Shown: one piece after another, positions 17,198 to 23,852 of the stretch | How positions within the stretch are numbered: position 1 is the stretch's first letter | How the letters are laid out: every line of letters starts with the position of its first letter | Source of the DNA: Alphaproteobacteria bacterium RIFCSPHIGHO2_12_FULL_63_12 | Lineage (GTDB): Bacteria > Pseudomonadota > Alphaproteobacteria > Caulobacterales > Parvularculaceae | Assembly (NCBI GenBank): GCA_001767925.1 | Contig: MEMM01000026.1 | Location: 1-33,408, forward strand | Reading direction: 5' to 3' | Length of the DNA: 33,408 nucleotides | Translations under genes and position numbers: made by a program | The notes under the pieces: generated by a model | Databases searched by the model: none | What the model was told of the DNA's origin: nothing | The model's input: only the letters and a program-made list of their open reading frames with translations

Positions 17198-18150
17198 CGG
17201 CGGGCCGCTTCCGTACGATCACTTTGCTCGACACGTCGGTGTCATCGACGAATGTCGGCGATGAGATCATCATGGAGGCGGTGAGAAACCAGCTGCGTCC
17301 GGTCCTCGCGAATGATTACGTCAACCGCGTCGCAAGTCATGAAACAATGTCCGCCAAAAGCCGGTCGATGATCGCGAAGTCGGATTACGTCATCGCGGGC
17401 GGCAGCAATTTGCTGAGTTCCCATGCGGGCGTCAGGTCCGTTTGGAAGTTGTCGCCGCTTGATGCGGGCCTTGGCCCGAAATTCGTGATGATGGGCGTCG
17501 GCTGGTATCACGATCAGGGCGCGCCTGACCCGTATACCGCCTGGCTTTTCCGGTCGATGTTTTCGCGCGACCGGCTGCATTCGGTGCGCGACAGCTATTC
17601 GAAGAAGAAACTCGAAGACCTCGGCTTTACAAATGTCCTCAACACAGGTTGCCCGACTTTGTGGGAGTTGCCGGACGACGTCAATGAACGAACGCCCCGA
17701 AGAAAAGCCAAAAACGTCGTCACGACGCTCAACACCTATATGAAAGACCGCGACGCAGACGCGGCGTTGCTGCGCCTGTTGCAGGACGAGTATGAGCAGG
17801 TCTTCGCGTGGGTGCAGTCCTATGCCGATCAGGATTATCTGAGATCGCTGTTTCCCGCGGTTAAGCTGATCGCGCCCAATCTTCCCGCGTATGACGGATT
17901 GCTGACCAGCGATCTTGACCTCGATTATGTTGGCAACCGGCTCCATGCCGGCATTCGCGCGCTGCAAAAACGCCGGCGGACGATCATCATCGAAATCGAC
18001 AACCGGGCGCGGGAAATGGGCCGCGATTTCCACCTTCCGACGGTCGCGCGCGATGATTTCGCCGCGCTTCAATCGATGATTGCGACGCCGCGCCCGATGC
18101 AAATTGCGCTGCCGACAGAAGACATCGCACGCTGGCGCGGCCAATGGTGA
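17194..18150 (+). CDS. Polysaccharide pyruvyl transferase family protein
   Basis: The 318-residue protein begins LLDTSVSSTNVGDEIIMEAV, the NxGD-type start of the family, followed by SDYVIAGGSNLL, MMGVGWY, SVRDSYSKKKLEDLG and the C-terminal DLDYVGNRLHAGIRALQ with a conserved His. The family transfers pyruvate from phosphoenolpyruvate to form ketals on exopolysaccharide sugars (CsaB, ExoV, GumL), although some members have other roles. Its start overlaps the methyltransferase stop (ATGA), and its end overlaps the flippase start by 7 bases. PEP from lower glycolysis would be the donor. Confidence 0.85.
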   Translation: MTAGRFRTITLLDTSVSSTNVGDEIIMEAVRNQLRPVLANDYVNRVASHETMSAKSRSMIAKSDYVIAGGSNLLSSHAGVRSVWKLSPLDAGLGPKFVMMGVGWYHDQGAPDPYTAWLFRSMFSRDRLHSVRDSYSKKKLEDLGFTNVLNTGCPTLWELPDDVNERTPRRKAKNVVTTLNTYMKDRDADAALLRLLQDEYEQVFAWVQSYADQDYLRSLFPAVKLIAPNLPAYDGLLTSDLDLDYVGNRLHAGIRALQKRRRTIIIEIDNRAREMGRDFHLPTVARDDFAALQSMIATPRPMQIALPTEDIARWRGQW

Positions 18151-19613
18151 TGAACGCCGCTCACCCCGAAAATTCAACGCCGGAGCCAGCGCGGAAAAAG
18201 CGATTCAGCCTCGGACGGCTGATCGATGATTTTTTCGTTTTGGCCTCGGGCCAGCTGTTTTCAAAGGTTTTCGGGTTTCTGGCGTTCGCGTGGCTGGCGC
18301 GCCAGCTGACGGTTGAAGAATACGGCGCAGTCGAAACTGCGGTCGGTATGGCGGCGATCGGCGCGATCGCGCTGGAAATGGGAACCGGCGCGATCGGCGT
18401 CCGGCGGATTTCCCAAAGCGAATCGGGCGCCATGCACGTCCTTGGCGACGTAATCGCCGGACGCATGTTTCTTGCGATCCTCGCCGCGCCGCTGCTCGCG
18501 ATTTTTTATATCGCGGCGACCAGATCGTCTGCGCCCGACGCACTTTTCTGGATTTTCGCCGTGAGTCTTTTCGCCATCCCTTTCAATCACAACTGGTTTT
18601 TTCAGGCGCATGAGAGAATGGGCGTCGCCGGATTCGGCCTGACCCTGAAAATGGGCGTCTTTCTTGTCGCCCTCCTTCTGCTGGCGCCGCAACGAAACGG
18701 CGTGGTCTACGTCGCCGTCTCCGAAGTGATCGCCGCCGTGGCGATGGCGCTTTGGTTCTGCGTTTTCGGTTATTTGATGATCCGCCCGGATCATCCCCGC
18801 TATTCGGTCGCTAGTAGCGTTAAAATGCTGAGGGAGAGCGCCCAGCTCGGCGCGTCGTCATTTGTCAATGCGTTGGCGCAATTCCTGCCGGTTCTGGTGG
18901 TGGCGACGGCGGCTGACGACATCGAAACCGCAAAATTCGGCGCGTCGCAACGATTGGTTGTGTCGCTTATGACCTTCAGCTACGTATACTACTTCAACCT
19001 TTTTCCGCTGATCGCACGGCGCATGATTGATGACGCCTCCGCGCTCACGCGCATTATTTCGGCGTCGGTGCGCGTCACTGCCTGGGTCGGGGTGGTGACG
19101 GGGGTTGTTTTCTGGGTCTTCGCGCCGCTGGTCATGCGGTTGGTTTTCGGCGCGGCTTTCGAGCCCGCCGGGCGCGTCTTCGGCATTCTCGTCTGGAGCG
19201 GGGTGATCATCCTCGCCTCCGGAAACGCCCGTTGGCTGCTCGTGGCCGGCAAGCGGCAGAGCTCGCTCCTTGCCGCACATGTCGTGAACGCCACCAGCGT
19301 CGTCGGGCTCGGATATCTGTTTTCGTCAATGCTTGGTGCCATGGGGGCAGCTGTCGCTTGCGTCATCGGGGCCTGCGGCCTGTGGGCGGTCGCGCATCAC
19401 CGCACCAGGGGGCTAGATGTCCGGCCTGACCTTTCGGGGAATCTGATTCCGGCTGCGACCGCCGCCGCGATTGTCATTTCGTTAACTTTGTTGAAGCTTC
19501 AGCCGGCGCCGGCGGCGGGTCTTGCCGCCGTCATGCTGGCGGCGGGAATGCTCGTCGACCGCCGGTTGCCTGGCGCGCTCGGGGCGTTGATCAAGGCCAA
19601 GTCTGCGGCGTGA
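18144..19613 (+). CDS. Oligosaccharide flippase (Wzx / MOP superfamily)
   Basis: The 489-residue protein is strongly hydrophobic, with about 12-14 expected membrane helices after a basic N-terminal tail. The first helix region FVLASGQLFSKVFGFLAFAWLARQLTVEEYGAV is typical of polysaccharide flippases (PF01943/PF13440), which move undecaprenyl-linked oligosaccharides to the periplasmic side. It starts at ATG 18144 inside the preceding gene; ATG 18150 is equally plausible. A 92-base gap follows, the largest inside the cluster. No Wzy-type polymerase is recognised in the window. Confidence 0.87.
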   Translation: MVMNAAHPENSTPEPARKKRFSLGRLIDDFFVLASGQLFSKVFGFLAFAWLARQLTVEEYGAVETAVGMAAIGAIALEMGTGAIGVRRISQSESGAMHVLGDVIAGRMFLAILAAPLLAIFYIAATRSSAPDALFWIFAVSLFAIPFNHNWFFQAHERMGVAGFGLTLKMGVFLVALLLLAPQRNGVVYVAVSEVIAAVAMALWFCVFGYLMIRPDHPRYSVASSVKMLRESAQLGASSFVNALAQFLPVLVVATAADDIETAKFGASQRLVVSLMTFSYVYYFNLFPLIARRMIDDASALTRIISASVRVTAWVGVVTGVVFWVFAPLVMRLVFGAAFEPAGRVFGILVWSGVIILASGNARWLLVAGKRQSSLLAAHVVNATSVVGLGYLFSSMLGAMGAAVACVIGACGLWAVAHHRTRGLDVRPDLSGNLIPAATAAAIVISLTLLKLQPAPAAGLAAVMLAAGMLVDRRLPGALGALIKAKSAA

Positions 19614-19680: not shown

Positions 19681-19705
19681 GATCGATCGAATTCTGGGGA
19701 AGATT

Positions 19706-21103
19706 ATGGCGACGATATCAAGGATGGCAAGCGGCAAACCGGACGCCTCGGCGATCCTTTCAAAGGGCGCGTATTATATTCTCGACCGGTGCGCCTCGCA
19801 CAGCGAAGTCTACCCAGTCGTTTGCGAGGCCTTCTATTCCGGCGTCGAGAAGCTTGCAGGCGAGGAATCGGCGAAGCATGTCCGCCGCGACGGTCTCGCC
19901 ATGCTGCACAAGCATTTCCCGACCGAGAAGGTTCTTTTACTGGAAGAATATGTTCGTTCCGCTCTGAAAGAGACGCTCCTCGACTGGAGTTTCCGGGTCG
20001 GCTCCGAAGATCTTGGGTTGTCGCATCCTTTCTATGTCGATCATCTGATCGTCATTCGTATCCACTATCCATTTGATGTCGCCAGGAAAGCCAAGACGGC
20101 GGAACGCCCTGATGCGGCGCGAGCCGATTTTTGGGATCATGCGGTGTCGGCGATCCGAAATCCTAGAATAATTCTCAATCAGGCATCGCGCGCCATCCGC
20201 CGGCCGCGCAAAAACTCAAGCTACGATCCAGATCAGTTTCACGGCGCGCTGGCAAAGCCCGCGCGCTCGCACGGCGCTCATATCGACACGTGGTACGGCC
20301 ACTCGTTTGACGGCATCAACCTTTGGTGGTCGATCGACGGCGTTAATGTCGACAATACGGTCATACTCTATCCGGATATGTTCGCCCGGCCAGTCGATTT
20401 CGACCCGAAGAGCATGTATCTTTCCAAGGGCCAACAGGTTTCAGAACCCCATCAGGTCGATCTGAAACCCGGCGAATTGCTGCTGTTTAACCCTGAAATG
20501 CTGCACTCGACGCAGGTCAATGTTTCCGAAACGACGCGCGTCGCGCTGACGACCAGGATTAATCCGCACGAGCCGAAATTCAACGACGAAGCGCCGTTCA
20601 ATTTCGAACACTGGCACAATTCGCGGGACATCGAGCACCGGAAATACAAGGCTCTCGATGTGTTTCCCGCCGGAAAGCATCGCGGCGAGCCTTCTTATCT
20701 CTCGCGCCCCCGTTATGAAAGCGCCACGACAAAAACCATCAGCGTCAACCACCCTTCATCCGAGGGGCCGGCTTGCGCCATCGGCGATCTCACACCTGGC
20801 GTAAAAGTGGCGGTCGACTTTCCGGACGCGAAAGTCATTTTGTGGCGCGACGCGAATAATGAAATCAAAGCCTATTCGCGCCTGTGTCCACATGTCGGCG
20901 TCGATCTAGTCGACGGCTGGCATGACGCGGATCATGTTCATTGCCCGGGGCATGGGTTGAAATTCGCCTGGGAAGATGGACATTCGAATTGCGCCTCATT
21001 CAAGCTGCGCGCTTATGGCGTCGAGCTGCGCGATGGCGGCGTATTCCTCTTCAAACGGCCGCAAGGTGCGTCAGCGGGCGCTGAAGCGGCGGCGAGCGTT
21101 TGA
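19706..21103 (+). CDS. Phytanoyl-CoA dioxygenase-like Fe(II) oxygenase fused to a C-terminal Rieske [2Fe-2S] domain
   Basis: The protein has 465 residues. The N-terminal two-thirds (about 1-320) has a 2-His-1-carboxylate iron site of the Fe(II)/2-oxoglutarate type: His192 and Asp194 in GAHIDTWYGH and His267 in FNPEMLHS, with Arg278 eleven residues later where 2-oxoglutarate is normally bound. The C-terminal part (about 350-450) is a Rieske domain with CPH (Cys394, His396) and CPGH (Cys413, His416), a complete ligand set. No signal peptide or membrane segment is seen, so it is probably cytoplasmic. Classical Rieske oxygenases have the opposite order and a different catalytic fold, so this architecture is unusual. 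GGGGAAG lies upstream of the ATG. The stop overlaps the start of the cytochrome b561 gene, suggesting a redox partnership. Substrate unknown, likely a sugar or lipid of the glycan. Confidence 0.82.
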   Translation: MATISRMASGKPDASAILSKGAYYILDRCASHSEVYPVVCEAFYSGVEKLAGEESAKHVRRDGLAMLHKHFPTEKVLLLEEYVRSALKETLLDWSFRVGSEDLGLSHPFYVDHLIVIRIHYPFDVARKAKTAERPDAARADFWDHAVSAIRNPRIILNQASRAIRRPRKNSSYDPDQFHGALAKPARSHGAHIDTWYGHSFDGINLWWSIDGVNVDNTVILYPDMFARPVDFDPKSMYLSKGQQVSEPHQVDLKPGELLLFNPEMLHSTQVNVSETTRVALTTRINPHEPKFNDEAPFNFEHWHNSRDIEHRKYKALDVFPAGKHRGEPSYLSRPRYESATTKTISVNHPSSEGPACAIGDLTPGVKVAVDFPDAKVILWRDANNEIKAYSRLCPHVGVDLVDGWHDADHVHCPGHGLKFAWEDGHSNCASFKLRAYGVELRDGGVFLFKRPQGASAGAEAAASV

Positions 21104-21822
21104 TGTCTGCTGATCAAGGCGCCGCCGGACCATATAGCAGGCGGCTCCGCCAGCTTCATCTGGCGATAGCAACCCTGATTATGTCGCTCGCATTCACCGG
21201 CCTTGTGTTCTATTTCCGCAAGTCGCTGGGTCTTGGAGACGCCAAGATTACGCTGATGACGATTCATTCTTTCATCGGCTACGCGCTTGTCGCAGCGATT
21301 GCCTGGCGCCTCTGGCTGGGGTTCAGGGGGCGCGAGCCGGACCGGTTCAGTCATGCGCTGACGGGCCCCCAGAATTTCCAAAAACTGTTCGCGGGCGCGC
21401 AGGGGCGTCGTCATCGGTTTCGCTTCGCCGGCCGCTCGCCTCTGAGCCGTCTGATCGCGACGGTTCTTTACGCTGCGGTCTTCTTCAATATCGGGACCGG
21501 ACTAATTCGCGCCGGCACCGATCTCTATTTTCCGCCCTTTGGCCCGTTCGTCCTGCATTATATCACCGCCCCCGGGGAGACGCCGTCGGTCGCCGCCGTT
21601 AAAGCCGGCAAAGTCGACAAGGTGCGCGCCGAACAGATTAAGGAATTCAAGCTCCCGGTCGGCAAGGTTCACTTGTATGGCGGCCTTTTCATCCTGTTCC
21701 TCGCGACCGTTCACGCAAGCGGCGCGCTGGTCACCGAATGGTCGGCGCCCGCCGACAAGGCCGCGCGAGGCCGGGCGAGACTGATGCTGTTTGGTCCAGG
21801 GAAAACCCGACGACCGCTATGA
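21103..21822 (+). CDS. Cytochrome b561-family di-heme membrane protein
   Basis: The 239-residue protein has four predicted membrane helices at about 20-38, 52-74, 114-136 and 191-210. Histidines suited to bind two b hemes are His19 (RQLHLAI), His55 (MTIHSFIGYAL), His190 (KVHLYGG) and His204 (ATVHASG), the pattern of the bacterial cytochrome b561/Ni-hydrogenase b-type family (PF01292). Such proteins carry electrons between the quinone pool and a partner protein. The ATG at 21103 shares its A with the stop of the dioxygenase-Rieske gene, and its own stop overlaps the GT4 start in ATGA. The natural partner is the Rieske domain upstream. Confidence 0.85.
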   Translation: MSADQGAAGPYSRRLRQLHLAIATLIMSLAFTGLVFYFRKSLGLGDAKITLMTIHSFIGYALVAAIAWRLWLGFRGREPDRFSHALTGPQNFQKLFAGAQGRRHRFRFAGRSPLSRLIATVLYAAVFFNIGTGLIRAGTDLYFPPFGPFVLHYITAPGETPSVAAVKAGKVDKVRAEQIKEFKLPVGKVHLYGGLFILFLATVHASGALVTEWSAPADKAARGRARLMLFGPGKTRRPL

Positions 21823-23090
21823 AAATAGCGCTCATCAACACCTTCTACCCTCCCTATAATTTTGGCGGCGACGGCGTTTATGTTCGCCGGTTAGCGCATT
21901 CGCTCGCGCGCCTCGGCTGCGACGTGCGTGTTCTGCATGATACGGAAACGTATAAGGCGTTGGCGCCTAAACCCTTTGGAGATCTGACGCCGCTTGAAGA
22001 GCCCTCGGGTGTTCGCGTGACACGCCTTGAGAGCCCGATAGGCCCATTGTCGACGCTGTTGACTCACCAGACCGGGCGACCGGTCGCGCATGGCCCCGCG
22101 TTGAAAGAATTTTTCAGCGAGAAATTCGACGTCACTCATTTTCACAATGTTTCAGCGGTCGGCGGGCCTGGAATGTTGTCGATGGGGTCCGGCGTCAGGC
22201 TTTATACCGCCCATGAGCATTGGCTCGTTTGTCCGACGCATATCCTGTGGCGGCATGATCGTGAAATCTGCGACCGGCGGGAGTGCGTCAAATGCCAAGC
22301 GGTCTATCGCCGCCCTCCGCAATTGTGGCGGTACACGGACTTCCTGAAGCGCCAGGCCGCCCATATCGACGCCTTTATCGCGCTCAGCAGGTCCAGCGCC
22401 GAAAATCATCGTCGGTTTGGATTTGAGCCGGAGATGCAGGTGCTTCCGTCATTTCTGCCGGATACGCCCGCATCATCCGCACAAACAACCGGCATCGATC
22501 AGTCAAAGCCCTACGCCCTTTTCATCGGACGGCTGGAAAAACTCAAAGGATTGCAGGACGTCATTCCCGCGTTCAAGGCGAGACCTGACCTCGATCTTGT
22601 CATTATCGGCGACGGCGACTTTCGCGGCGAGCTTGAAATGATCGCCGGCGGCGCGCCGAATATCCGTTTTCTCGGGAAGCGGCCGTCCGAGCAGCTTGAC
22701 GATTATTACCGCGCCGCCGCCGCAGTCTTGCTTCCATCGGTTTGCTACGAAGTATTTCCGCTTGTCGCCCTGGAGGCATTGCGCGCCGGCGCGCCGCTTG
22801 TCGCCCGCAATCTCGGCCCATTTCCTGAAATTGCGGAGATCAGCGGCGCCGGACTGCTGTTCGACCGGCCATCCGAGGCGGCCGAAGCGGTCGGACGGTT
22901 GGCGGGTGATCCCCGATTGCGCGCGGAAATGGGCGCACGCGGCCGACGCGCTTTTGAAACCCAGTGGAGCGAAAAAATCGCGTTTTCCGCCTATTTTAAC
23001 CTTATTGCGGAAATCGCCGCCCGAAAAGGGCTTCGAGATACGGCGGAACAAGCCCAATCGCTCACTTTAAAGCTGGCGAATTCGCACTAA
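21819..23090 (+). CDS. Family 4 glycosyltransferase (GT-B)
   Basis: The 423-residue protein opens with MKIALINTFYPPYNFGGDGVYVRRLA, the GT4 acceptor-domain start with its glycine-rich loop. The middle carries a cysteine cluster CPTH…CDRRECVKC, seen in a GT4 subgroup and possibly binding metal. The donor-domain features are FIGRLEKLKGL, IIGDGDFRGEL and EVFPLVALEALRAG with the E-x7-E motif. It transfers a sugar from a nucleotide donor to the growing glycan in the cytoplasm. I chose the ATG at 21819, which overlaps the b561 stop; the same frame is open further upstream but without family sequence. A 51-base gap follows. Confidence 0.88.
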   Translation: MKIALINTFYPPYNFGGDGVYVRRLAHSLARLGCDVRVLHDTETYKALAPKPFGDLTPLEEPSGVRVTRLESPIGPLSTLLTHQTGRPVAHGPALKEFFSEKFDVTHFHNVSAVGGPGMLSMGSGVRLYTAHEHWLVCPTHILWRHDREICDRRECVKCQAVYRRPPQLWRYTDFLKRQAAHIDAFIALSRSSAENHRRFGFEPEMQVLPSFLPDTPASSAQTTGIDQSKPYALFIGRLEKLKGLQDVIPAFKARPDLDLVIIGDGDFRGELEMIAGGAPNIRFLGKRPSEQLDDYYRAAAAVLLPSVCYEVFPLVALEALRAGAPLVARNLGPFPEIAEISGAGLLFDRPSEAAEAVGRLAGDPRLRAEMGARGRRAFETQWSEKIAFSAYFNLIAEIAARKGLRDTAEQAQSLTLKLANSH

Positions 23091-23141: not shown

Positions 23142-23852
23142 ATGAAAGTCGGACACAAGATTGAAGCGGGAAATGCCGGGTGGAATTTTGGCGGCGAGGT
23201 CGCCGAAACATTCGTCGACCATATCCGGCAATCAGTTCCGATGTACGCCGAGGGGCATGATCTCGTCTGTCAGTTCAGCGATTATTTCGTCTCCAATCAA
23301 AGCACCTGCTACGAAATCGGCGTTTCGACCGGCGAGTTGCTCCGTAAACTTGCAACGCACAACAGCGGCAAGCCGAACGCCCGCTGGATCGGAATCGACA
23401 CCGAAAAACCGATGATCGACAAAGCGAAAAAGCATTGCGCCGGCATAGAGAATATCGAGCTTTATGTGGAAGACATCCGGAATTTCGACCTGGAGCCCGC
23501 GGACCTCATTGTCTCTTATTACACGATGCAATTCACGCCGCCGCGGCACCGACAGGAAATTTTCGACAAGATCTATAACGCCCTGAACTGGGGCGGCGCC
23601 TTTATCATGTTTGAAAAGGTTCGCGGCCCCGACGCCCGTTTCCAGGATATCTGCGTGTCCCTTTATAATGATTTCAAGGTGCGCCAGGGCTTTTCGCCTG
23701 AGGAAATCCTGTCCAAGACGCGCAGCCTGAAGGGCGTTCTTGAACCCTTCTCGACCGAAGGCAATCTCGGCCTGATGCGGCGCGCCGGATTTACGGACGT
23801 CATGTCGGTTTGCAAATATATCTGCTTCGAAGGCTTCCTCGCGATCAAATAA
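23142..23852 (+). CDS. CmoA-like SAM-dependent enzyme (carboxy-SAM synthase or methyltransferase)
   Basis: The 236-residue protein aligns along its length with my recollection of E. coli CmoA, which makes carboxy-S-adenosylmethionine from SAM and prephenate: WNFGGEVAETFVDHIRQSVPMY against the [21 protein letters not shown] region, SAM motif I YEIGVSTGE (57-65), IGIDTEKPMIDKAKKH, MQFTPPRHRQEIFDKIYNALNWGGAF, and SKTRSLKGVL, where Arg194 falls at the position of CmoA Arg199, reported to hold the carboxylate. Normal CmoA works with CmoB in tRNA wobble-uridine modification; no CmoB is here and the neighbours are glycan genes. A strong GGAGGAGAG precedes the ATG. It could instead be an ordinary methyltransferase that kept the CmoA scaffold. 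Confidence 0.72.
   Translation: MKVGHKIEAGNAGWNFGGEVAETFVDHIRQSVPMYAEGHDLVCQFSDYFVSNQSTCYEIGVSTGELLRKLATHNSGKPNARWIGIDTEKPMIDKAKKHCAGIENIELYVEDIRNFDLEPADLIVSYYTMQFTPPRHRQEIFDKIYNALNWGGAFIMFEKVRGPDARFQDICVSLYNDFKVRQGFSPEEILSKTRSLKGVLEPFSTEGNLGLMRRAGFTDVMSVCKYICFEGFLAIK

Follow-up and report, generated by a model that had tools for sequence, protein, structure and literature searches.

Two kinds of described enzyme are among the closest to the protein considered here. In Rieske non-haem iron oxygenases a single chain bears both a Rieske centre and an iron site of the 2-His-1-carboxylate type, with the Rieske domain at the N terminus, and PhyH-type Fe(II)/2-oxoglutarate (2OG) oxygenases (Pfam PF05721), such as human phytanoyl-CoA dioxygenase, combine an HxD...H triad with an Arg residue that is the usual 2OG anchor. 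2OG oxygenases lose activity once their iron oxidises; in animals ascorbate restores it, and to our knowledge its counterpart in most bacteria is unclear. We analysed a 33,408-nucleotide stretch of DNA (the window) from Alphaproteobacteria bacterium RIFCSPHIGHO2_12_FULL_63_12 (contig MEMM01000026.1, positions 1 to 33,408, forward strand), in which a single open frame encodes a fusion of an N-terminal PhyH-type oxygenase with a C-terminal Rieske domain, followed by genes for a cytochrome b561 and a GT4-family glycosyltransferase (Table 1). The fusion resembles the Rieske non-haem iron oxygenases in holding both centres on one chain, but its Rieske domain lies at the opposite end and its catalytic domain matches PhyH, and a classical Rieske oxygenase was dropped as an identity on these two grounds. 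We put a probability of about 40% on the reading that the protein is a 2OG sugar oxygenase with an in-cis Rieske relay for the upkeep of its iron, and that the b561 forms the membrane end of this relay in one lineage. A conserved 2OG oxygenase-Rieske ferredoxin fusion, with a membrane cytochrome alongside in some lineages, would be a natural system for testing dedicated electron supply.

Judged by its relatives, the fusion is genuine and conserved, as are both of its domains, and what we propose is the joint working of the parts. Genome searches covered overlapping samples of 398 genomes from the order, 385 from the class, 62 from the family and 398 from the phylum; at most four candidates per genome were scored in the order, class and phylum searches, so that fusions may have been missed. 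They yielded at least 15 fusions, distributed over 13 genomes: G000 (that of the window, 85% complete, with a single copy), G059, G263, G597, G514, G196, G015, G248, G074 (two copies), G010 (two copies), G533, G579 and G885, the last sharing only the phylum with the window and the other 12 belonging to its class. Within the family, seven of the 62 genomes contain the fusion, with matches along most of the model, and six more are matched only through its Rieske part. Among the relatives, identity with the window protein is 74-75% in the same genus, 50% in another family and 21-31% at greater distance, and both Pfam families are matched by all 15 fusions (PhyH at E ≤ 0.01); a chance reading frame was dropped as an explanation for this reason. 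The two same-genus relatives also occur in records CADEDN010000001.1 and JACADX010000168.1. The main split is the same in the tree of the oxygenase halves as in that of the Rieske halves and sets the window, G059, G263, G597, G514 and G196 apart from the rest (support 0.998 and 0.996), so that the domains have mostly been inherited together; the finer placement of L087, L090, L091 and L033 differs between the two trees or is weakly supported. Among viral contigs there were ten pattern matches and no relatives, and no match was obtained in phages with the Rieske half as query. Among plasmids, the window fusion as query gave one record, from Embleya sp. NBC_00896, and the G074 fusion gave 25, of which the best 20 comprise Embleya, matched through the oxygenase part, and 19 others matched through the C-terminal Rieske part; none of these best 20 covers 80% of the query. 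No description of a PhyH-Rieske fusion was found among the open-licence papers listed by the searches (titles and abstract openings), and as far as these reach, this domain fusion of glycan loci is undescribed.

The preliminary description of this DNA, made from the letters of the sequence, had placed an oxygenase site and a Rieske site on one chain, and every residue number it gave is correct. For the oxygenase half, a profile built from the 15 halves (A5) gives E = 2.7e-5 against human phytanoyl-CoA dioxygenase (2a1x) and 2.9e-5 against MysH, and in the alignment the HxD motif, the distal His and the Arg at +11 fall on those of 2a1x. These two proteins, of 308 and 270 residues respectively, correspond in length roughly to the oxygenase half without the Rieske domain that the fusion adds. 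Use of 2OG by the fusion is likely, to go by these sequence comparisons. Ahead of residue 340, the only Pfam matches besides PhyH are weak ones, to AraC_binding and 2OG-FeII_Oxy_5. TIGR04324 (sporadic carbohydrate cluster oxygenase), a family that judging from its name has a carbohydrate-cluster setting like that of the fusion, is matched by 10 of the 15 fusions at E ≤ 0.001, the window protein falling short of its cut-off (26.2 versus 150 bits).

The Rieske half looks like an attached ferredoxin. The profile built from all 15 halves (A6) has as its top matches the dioxygenase ferredoxins 5bok (E = 5.9e-14) and 2qpz (E = 1.1e-13), and T4moC is matched too; the match extends over most of the domain. 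The fusion shares with these proteins the ligand set and a Phe-type, low-potential motif; they are separate proteins of ~100-120 residues, whereas here the domain is joined to a PhyH-type oxygenase. The ligand set is complete in 14 of the 15 fusions. In the single remaining genome (G196, L033:9484-10794) CPGC replaces the C-x-x-H of the other 14, putting a Cys in place of the second Rieske His, and the resulting set of three Cys and one His resembles that of mitoNEET. The extra invariant Cys429 aligns with a Cys of 2i7f, which we take to be the protein of PMC1847435. The aligned 2i7f residue is taken to be Cys-83, said in that paper to hydrogen-bond the cluster. T4moC is the ferredoxin of a diiron hydroxylase, according to PMC4200526. 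Four residues beyond the second His ligand, Phe420 is a Phe in 13 of the fusions including that of the window, a Tyr in L089 and a Val in L087. PMC1847435 describes a Phe that dioxygenase ferredoxins conserve and that is always Tyr in respiratory and photosynthetic Rieske proteins, and it places centres of the dioxygenase-ferredoxin type at about -150 mV. On our reading of the motif, Phe420 occupies this same position and would mark the domain as a low-potential ferredoxin type.

Glycan genes flank 11 of the 15 fusions, which supports the glycan context of the preliminary description: those of the window, G059, G263, G597, G015, G248, G533, G514 and G885 (where the flippase was recognised by eye), together with one of the two copies in G074 and one of the two in G010. 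In five of these (G015, G248, G074, G010 and G533) a GT2 glycosyltransferase, a C-methyltransferase and an epimerase lie beside the fusion, identified with the G074 genes as query and, in G010, by eye. NCBIfam cut-offs are exceeded by the cytidine diphosphate (CDP)-glucose 4,6-dehydratase of G074 (407.5 versus 278.45) and by the G010 glucose-1-phosphate cytidylyltransferase (416.4 versus 300.25); the dehydratase is matched in G015 and G248 and unmatched on the 10,959-base G533 contig. This CDP-6-deoxysugar/C-methyltransferase cassette may serve to make a branched sugar and would give the five relatives a concrete substrate class. The cassette stands beside the second fusion group in loci L034, L035, L036, L038 and L088, and in L036, L034 and L035 it also includes a DUF6798 membrane protein. 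The GT4 subfamily (E ≤ 1e-100) is found in all seven fusion-bearing family genomes and in four of the other 55 (Fisher p = 7e-7, a value that, like the Poisson values, assumes independent genomes, an assumption that relatives violate). The query alignment (A8) includes four of the seven; the other three (G074, G010 and G248) match too, with the GT4 gene located elsewhere, next to a deacetylase like that of the window and without a b561. Within the class, the subfamily occurs in four of 308 genomes, namely the fusion-bearing G000, G597 and G533 and also G688, for which the class search, scoring at most four candidates per genome, gave no fusion; G514, G579 and G196 are not among these matches, their presence in that sample not being shown.

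The protein encoded directly after the fusion is a di-haem cytochrome b561, and here the preliminary description stood up well: there are four hydrophobic segments, all six aligned b561 proteins of such clusters keep the four His residues taken to bind haem (numbered from ATG 21103), the possible start codon lies on the final base of the fusion's stop codon (TGA 21101-21103), and the b561 gene in turn overlaps the GT4 gene. The two loci from the same genus differ here: given the start codons assigned in this analysis, gaps of 5 and 4 bases lie between the fusion gene and that for b561. The window b561 shares its family (PF01292) and the four haem-type His with the bacterial cytochrome b561/superoxide oxidase CybB. 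For superoxide oxidase, PMC11869295 gives haem potentials of -23 and +48 mV without quinone and +90 mV for ubiquinone, and names His158 as helping to bind quinone. In CybB this quinone-site His158 stands seven residues past His151, which binds haem 1 (residues from PMC11869295). The position seven residues past the last haem-type His is T, T, T, K, M and F in the six cluster proteins (Thr211 in the window), a comparison by spacing only; superoxide oxidase proper was dropped as an identity because this His is unmatched. When 29 b561 proteins are placed in one tree, the six from the clusters share a subtree with those of G149, G512, G601, G671 and G278 and do not form a clade of their own.

In the mechanism that we favour, a cytoplasmic PhyH-type Fe(II)/2OG oxygenase would oxidise, most simply hydroxylate, a sugar of a surface-glycan precursor. 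The C-terminal Rieske ferredoxin-like domain would act as an in-cis electron relay that is not required at every turnover, keeping the active-site iron as Fe(II) or re-reducing it after an uncoupled turnover. This is the job of ascorbate in animals; the need for re-reduction of Fe(III) would be shared, with a fused protein domain taking the place of the small reductant. In the genus of the window and in one other family, the co-encoded di-haem b561 may serve as the membrane end of the relay, where it would pass electrons to or from the quinone pool close to a lipid-linked substrate, and lineages without a linked b561 would use another partner. The fusion protein itself has no strongly hydrophobic segment by hydropathy.

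The membrane part of this scheme can be assessed from the distribution of b561 genes. A search for PF01292 in the 13 fusion genomes gave 26 matches in 12 of them (that in G533 lying below the curated cut-off), with none in G514, an 80%-complete genome. A b561 gene adjoins the fusion in four of the 15 cases (G000, G059, G263 and G597, from two families) and lies within 10 kb in six, the additional ones being G248 (~5 kb) and G015 (~9.5 kb). A rough chance expectation is 0.22 for the 13 genomes (two genes, a 30-kb target and 3.5 Mb). A block of fusion, b561, GT4 and CmoA-like genes is kept in G059, G263 and G597, the last belonging to another family. Within the family, b561 of the cluster type (A7) is found in five of the seven fusion-bearing genomes and in two of the other 55; because A7 was built from b561 genes near fusions, this partly follows from the choice of set, and the PF01292 count is the fairer one. 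The co-occurrence for which the preliminary description proposed a test thus holds for part of the fusions only: no b561 was found by the PF01292 search near the other nine, with the view in G533 and G579 limited by short contigs, and b561 cannot therefore be the general electron donor. We read it as a lineage-specific membrane partner, and membrane wiring through it as plausible, and unproven, in that one lineage.

The direction of electron flow that had been proposed, from quinol through b561 and the Rieske centre to the iron, is consistent with the position of b561 beside the fusion in two families and sits badly with the nine fusions that have none nearby. It also runs uphill by roughly 0.2 V if the low-potential Rieske motif is combined with the potentials in PMC1847435 and PMC11869295. 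An uphill step is not forbidden when O2 chemistry pulls, yet it counts against this direction. The complete scheme, in which electrons from the quinone pool would reach the PhyH-type iron by way of the b561 and the fused Rieske domain, giving a glycan oxygenase docked at the membrane and independent of any ascorbate-like reductant, is one that we hold to be unlikely as a whole.

Other observations, together with the absence of b561 near nine fusions and the uphill step, weigh against the reading of the protein as a 2OG sugar oxygenase with a Rieske relay and a partly linked b561. The PhyH score of the window protein is barely above its cut-off (22.6 versus 22 bits). The AlphaFold2 models of the fusion (predicted local distance difference test score, pLDDT, 44.5; predicted template modelling score, pTM, 0.29) and of the b561 (pLDDT 47.5, pTM 0.37), each from three sequences, allow no geometry to be read. 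Two fusions, the second copies of G074 and G010 (L037 and L039), lie outside glycan clusters, and G196 and G579 offer weak glycan hints. L037 and L039 are near NnrS-type genes (by Pfam in G074 and by eye in G010), and their location suggests a different role. Opposite charges on the b561 segments placed in the cytoplasm (+8 and +5) and on the window Rieske half (-4) speak for this reading, but across the 15 fusions the Rieske half spans -6 to +13, so that a charge match is no rule. In G015 the order wzx-b561-GT4 is found without the fusion inside it, the fusion lying 9.5 kb off in the same cluster, and the Embleya plasmid encodes a 323-residue protein (33% identical over 258 residues to the G579 fusion) that is matched by PhyH but by no Rieske family, stops where the oxygenase part is complete and keeps the 2OG-type Arg, which shows that an oxygenase domain of the fusion type can exist alone.

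The last two of these observations and the missing b561 genes also speak for the rival view that the Rieske domain and the b561 are not one electron path, the former being a structural, regulatory or redox-sensing appendage and the latter serving another enzyme or superoxide protection. It can also draw on the presence of wzx near b561 in all six loci, by which b561 may belong to the wider cluster, and on G149, where a related b561 stands beside glycan-like genes (recognised by eye) with no fusion at E ≤ 1e-12. The cluster ligands, however, are kept in 14 of 15 fusions across 21-75% identity, which exceeds structural need, and six of the 26 PF01292 matches, in four genera, are within 10 kb of a fusion; we consider separate paths somewhat unlikely, with a chance that deserves to be taken seriously.

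A second rival holds that the Rieske electrons activate O2 at the iron directly and that 2OG is not used, as in Rieske oxygenases or HppE-like enzymes. The preliminary description had entertained this as one of two options, and an in-cis Rieske domain with almost always intact ligands is what it would lead one to expect; enzymes with a facial triad that draw on an external electron source are known. Against it stand the 2OG-type Arg, invariant in all 15 fusions at the PhyH spacing, and the Embleya homologue, which retains that Arg with no Rieske domain and so fits an auxiliary Rieske better than one needed for O2 activation. We regard a 2OG-free enzyme as very doubtful. The milder option, rescue of oxidised iron, agrees with both of these facts.

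Outward flow, from enzyme or substrate through the Rieske centre and b561 to quinone as in a membrane dehydrogenase, is more doubtful still, for PF01292 (Ni_hydr_CYTB) does include hydrogenase cytochromes b that pass electrons from an Fe-S subunit to quinone, but Pfam finds no dehydrogenase domain in the fusion chain and no electrons are given off when a 2OG oxygenase site turns over normally. Its one thermodynamic attraction is that the path from a low-potential Rieske centre through the b561 haems to ubiquinone would be downhill on the values in PMC1847435 and PMC11869295.

Table 1. The fusion gene, its predicted functional residues and the genes around it, in window coordinates
Feature	Position	Strand	Details
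Wzx-like flippase, upstream of the fusion	18144..19613	+	Polysacc_synt, 56.7 bits
Fusion gene	19706..21103	+	465 residues, single open frame; PhyH-type Fe(II)/2OG oxygenase at the N terminus, Rieske domain at the C terminus
PhyH domain match	20135..20542	+	residues 144-279; Pfam PF05721, 22.6 bits (cut-off 22)
Iron ligands His192 and Asp194 (predicted)	20279..20287	+	invariant, 15/15; align with HxD of 2a1x
Third iron ligand His267 (predicted)	20504..20506	+	invariant, 15/15
Arg278, presumed 2OG anchor	20537..20539	+	11 residues past His267; invariant, 15/15; aligns with Arg of 2a1x
Rieske domain match	20768..20983	+	residues 355-426 of 465; Pfam PF00355, 52 bits (cut-off 20.3)
Rieske ligands Cys394 and His396 (predicted)	20885..20893	+	CxH; invariant, 15/15
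Rieske ligands Cys413 and His416 (predicted)	20942..20953	+	Cys413 15/15; His416 14/15 (Cys in L033)
Cys429, extra invariant Cys	20990..20992	+	15/15; aligns with Cys of 2i7f
Di-haem cytochrome b561 (PF01292)	21103..21822	+	61.7 bits (cut-off 30.1); four hydrophobic segments; presumed haem ligands His19, His55, His190 and His204
GT4 glycosyltransferase	21819..23090	+	possible ATG 21819, 4-base overlap with b561 stop; subfamily conserved
CmoA-like S-adenosylmethionine (SAM) enzyme	23142..23852	+	146.5 bits (cut-off 193.3)

Several smaller features of these loci may be added. A G-rich stretch resembling a ribosome-binding site was spotted by eye at 19696-19702, ahead of the fusion gene, and the start listed for the GT4 open reading frame (21738) is the earliest possible start codon of its frame. 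In G514 a separate, second PhyH-family gene (L090:10205-10984, 53 bits) directly follows the fusion, in a cluster that has NeuB. In G597 a gene for a GMC oxidoreductase (L089:9123-10724) lies between wzx and the fusion; as a flavin enzyme, it could be an electron partner. The identity of carboxy-SAM synthase was dropped for the CmoA-like gene since its score is below the cut-off; its product, part of the conserved block of fusion, b561, GT4 and CmoA-like genes, is 88-89% identical within the genus and 72% identical in G597.

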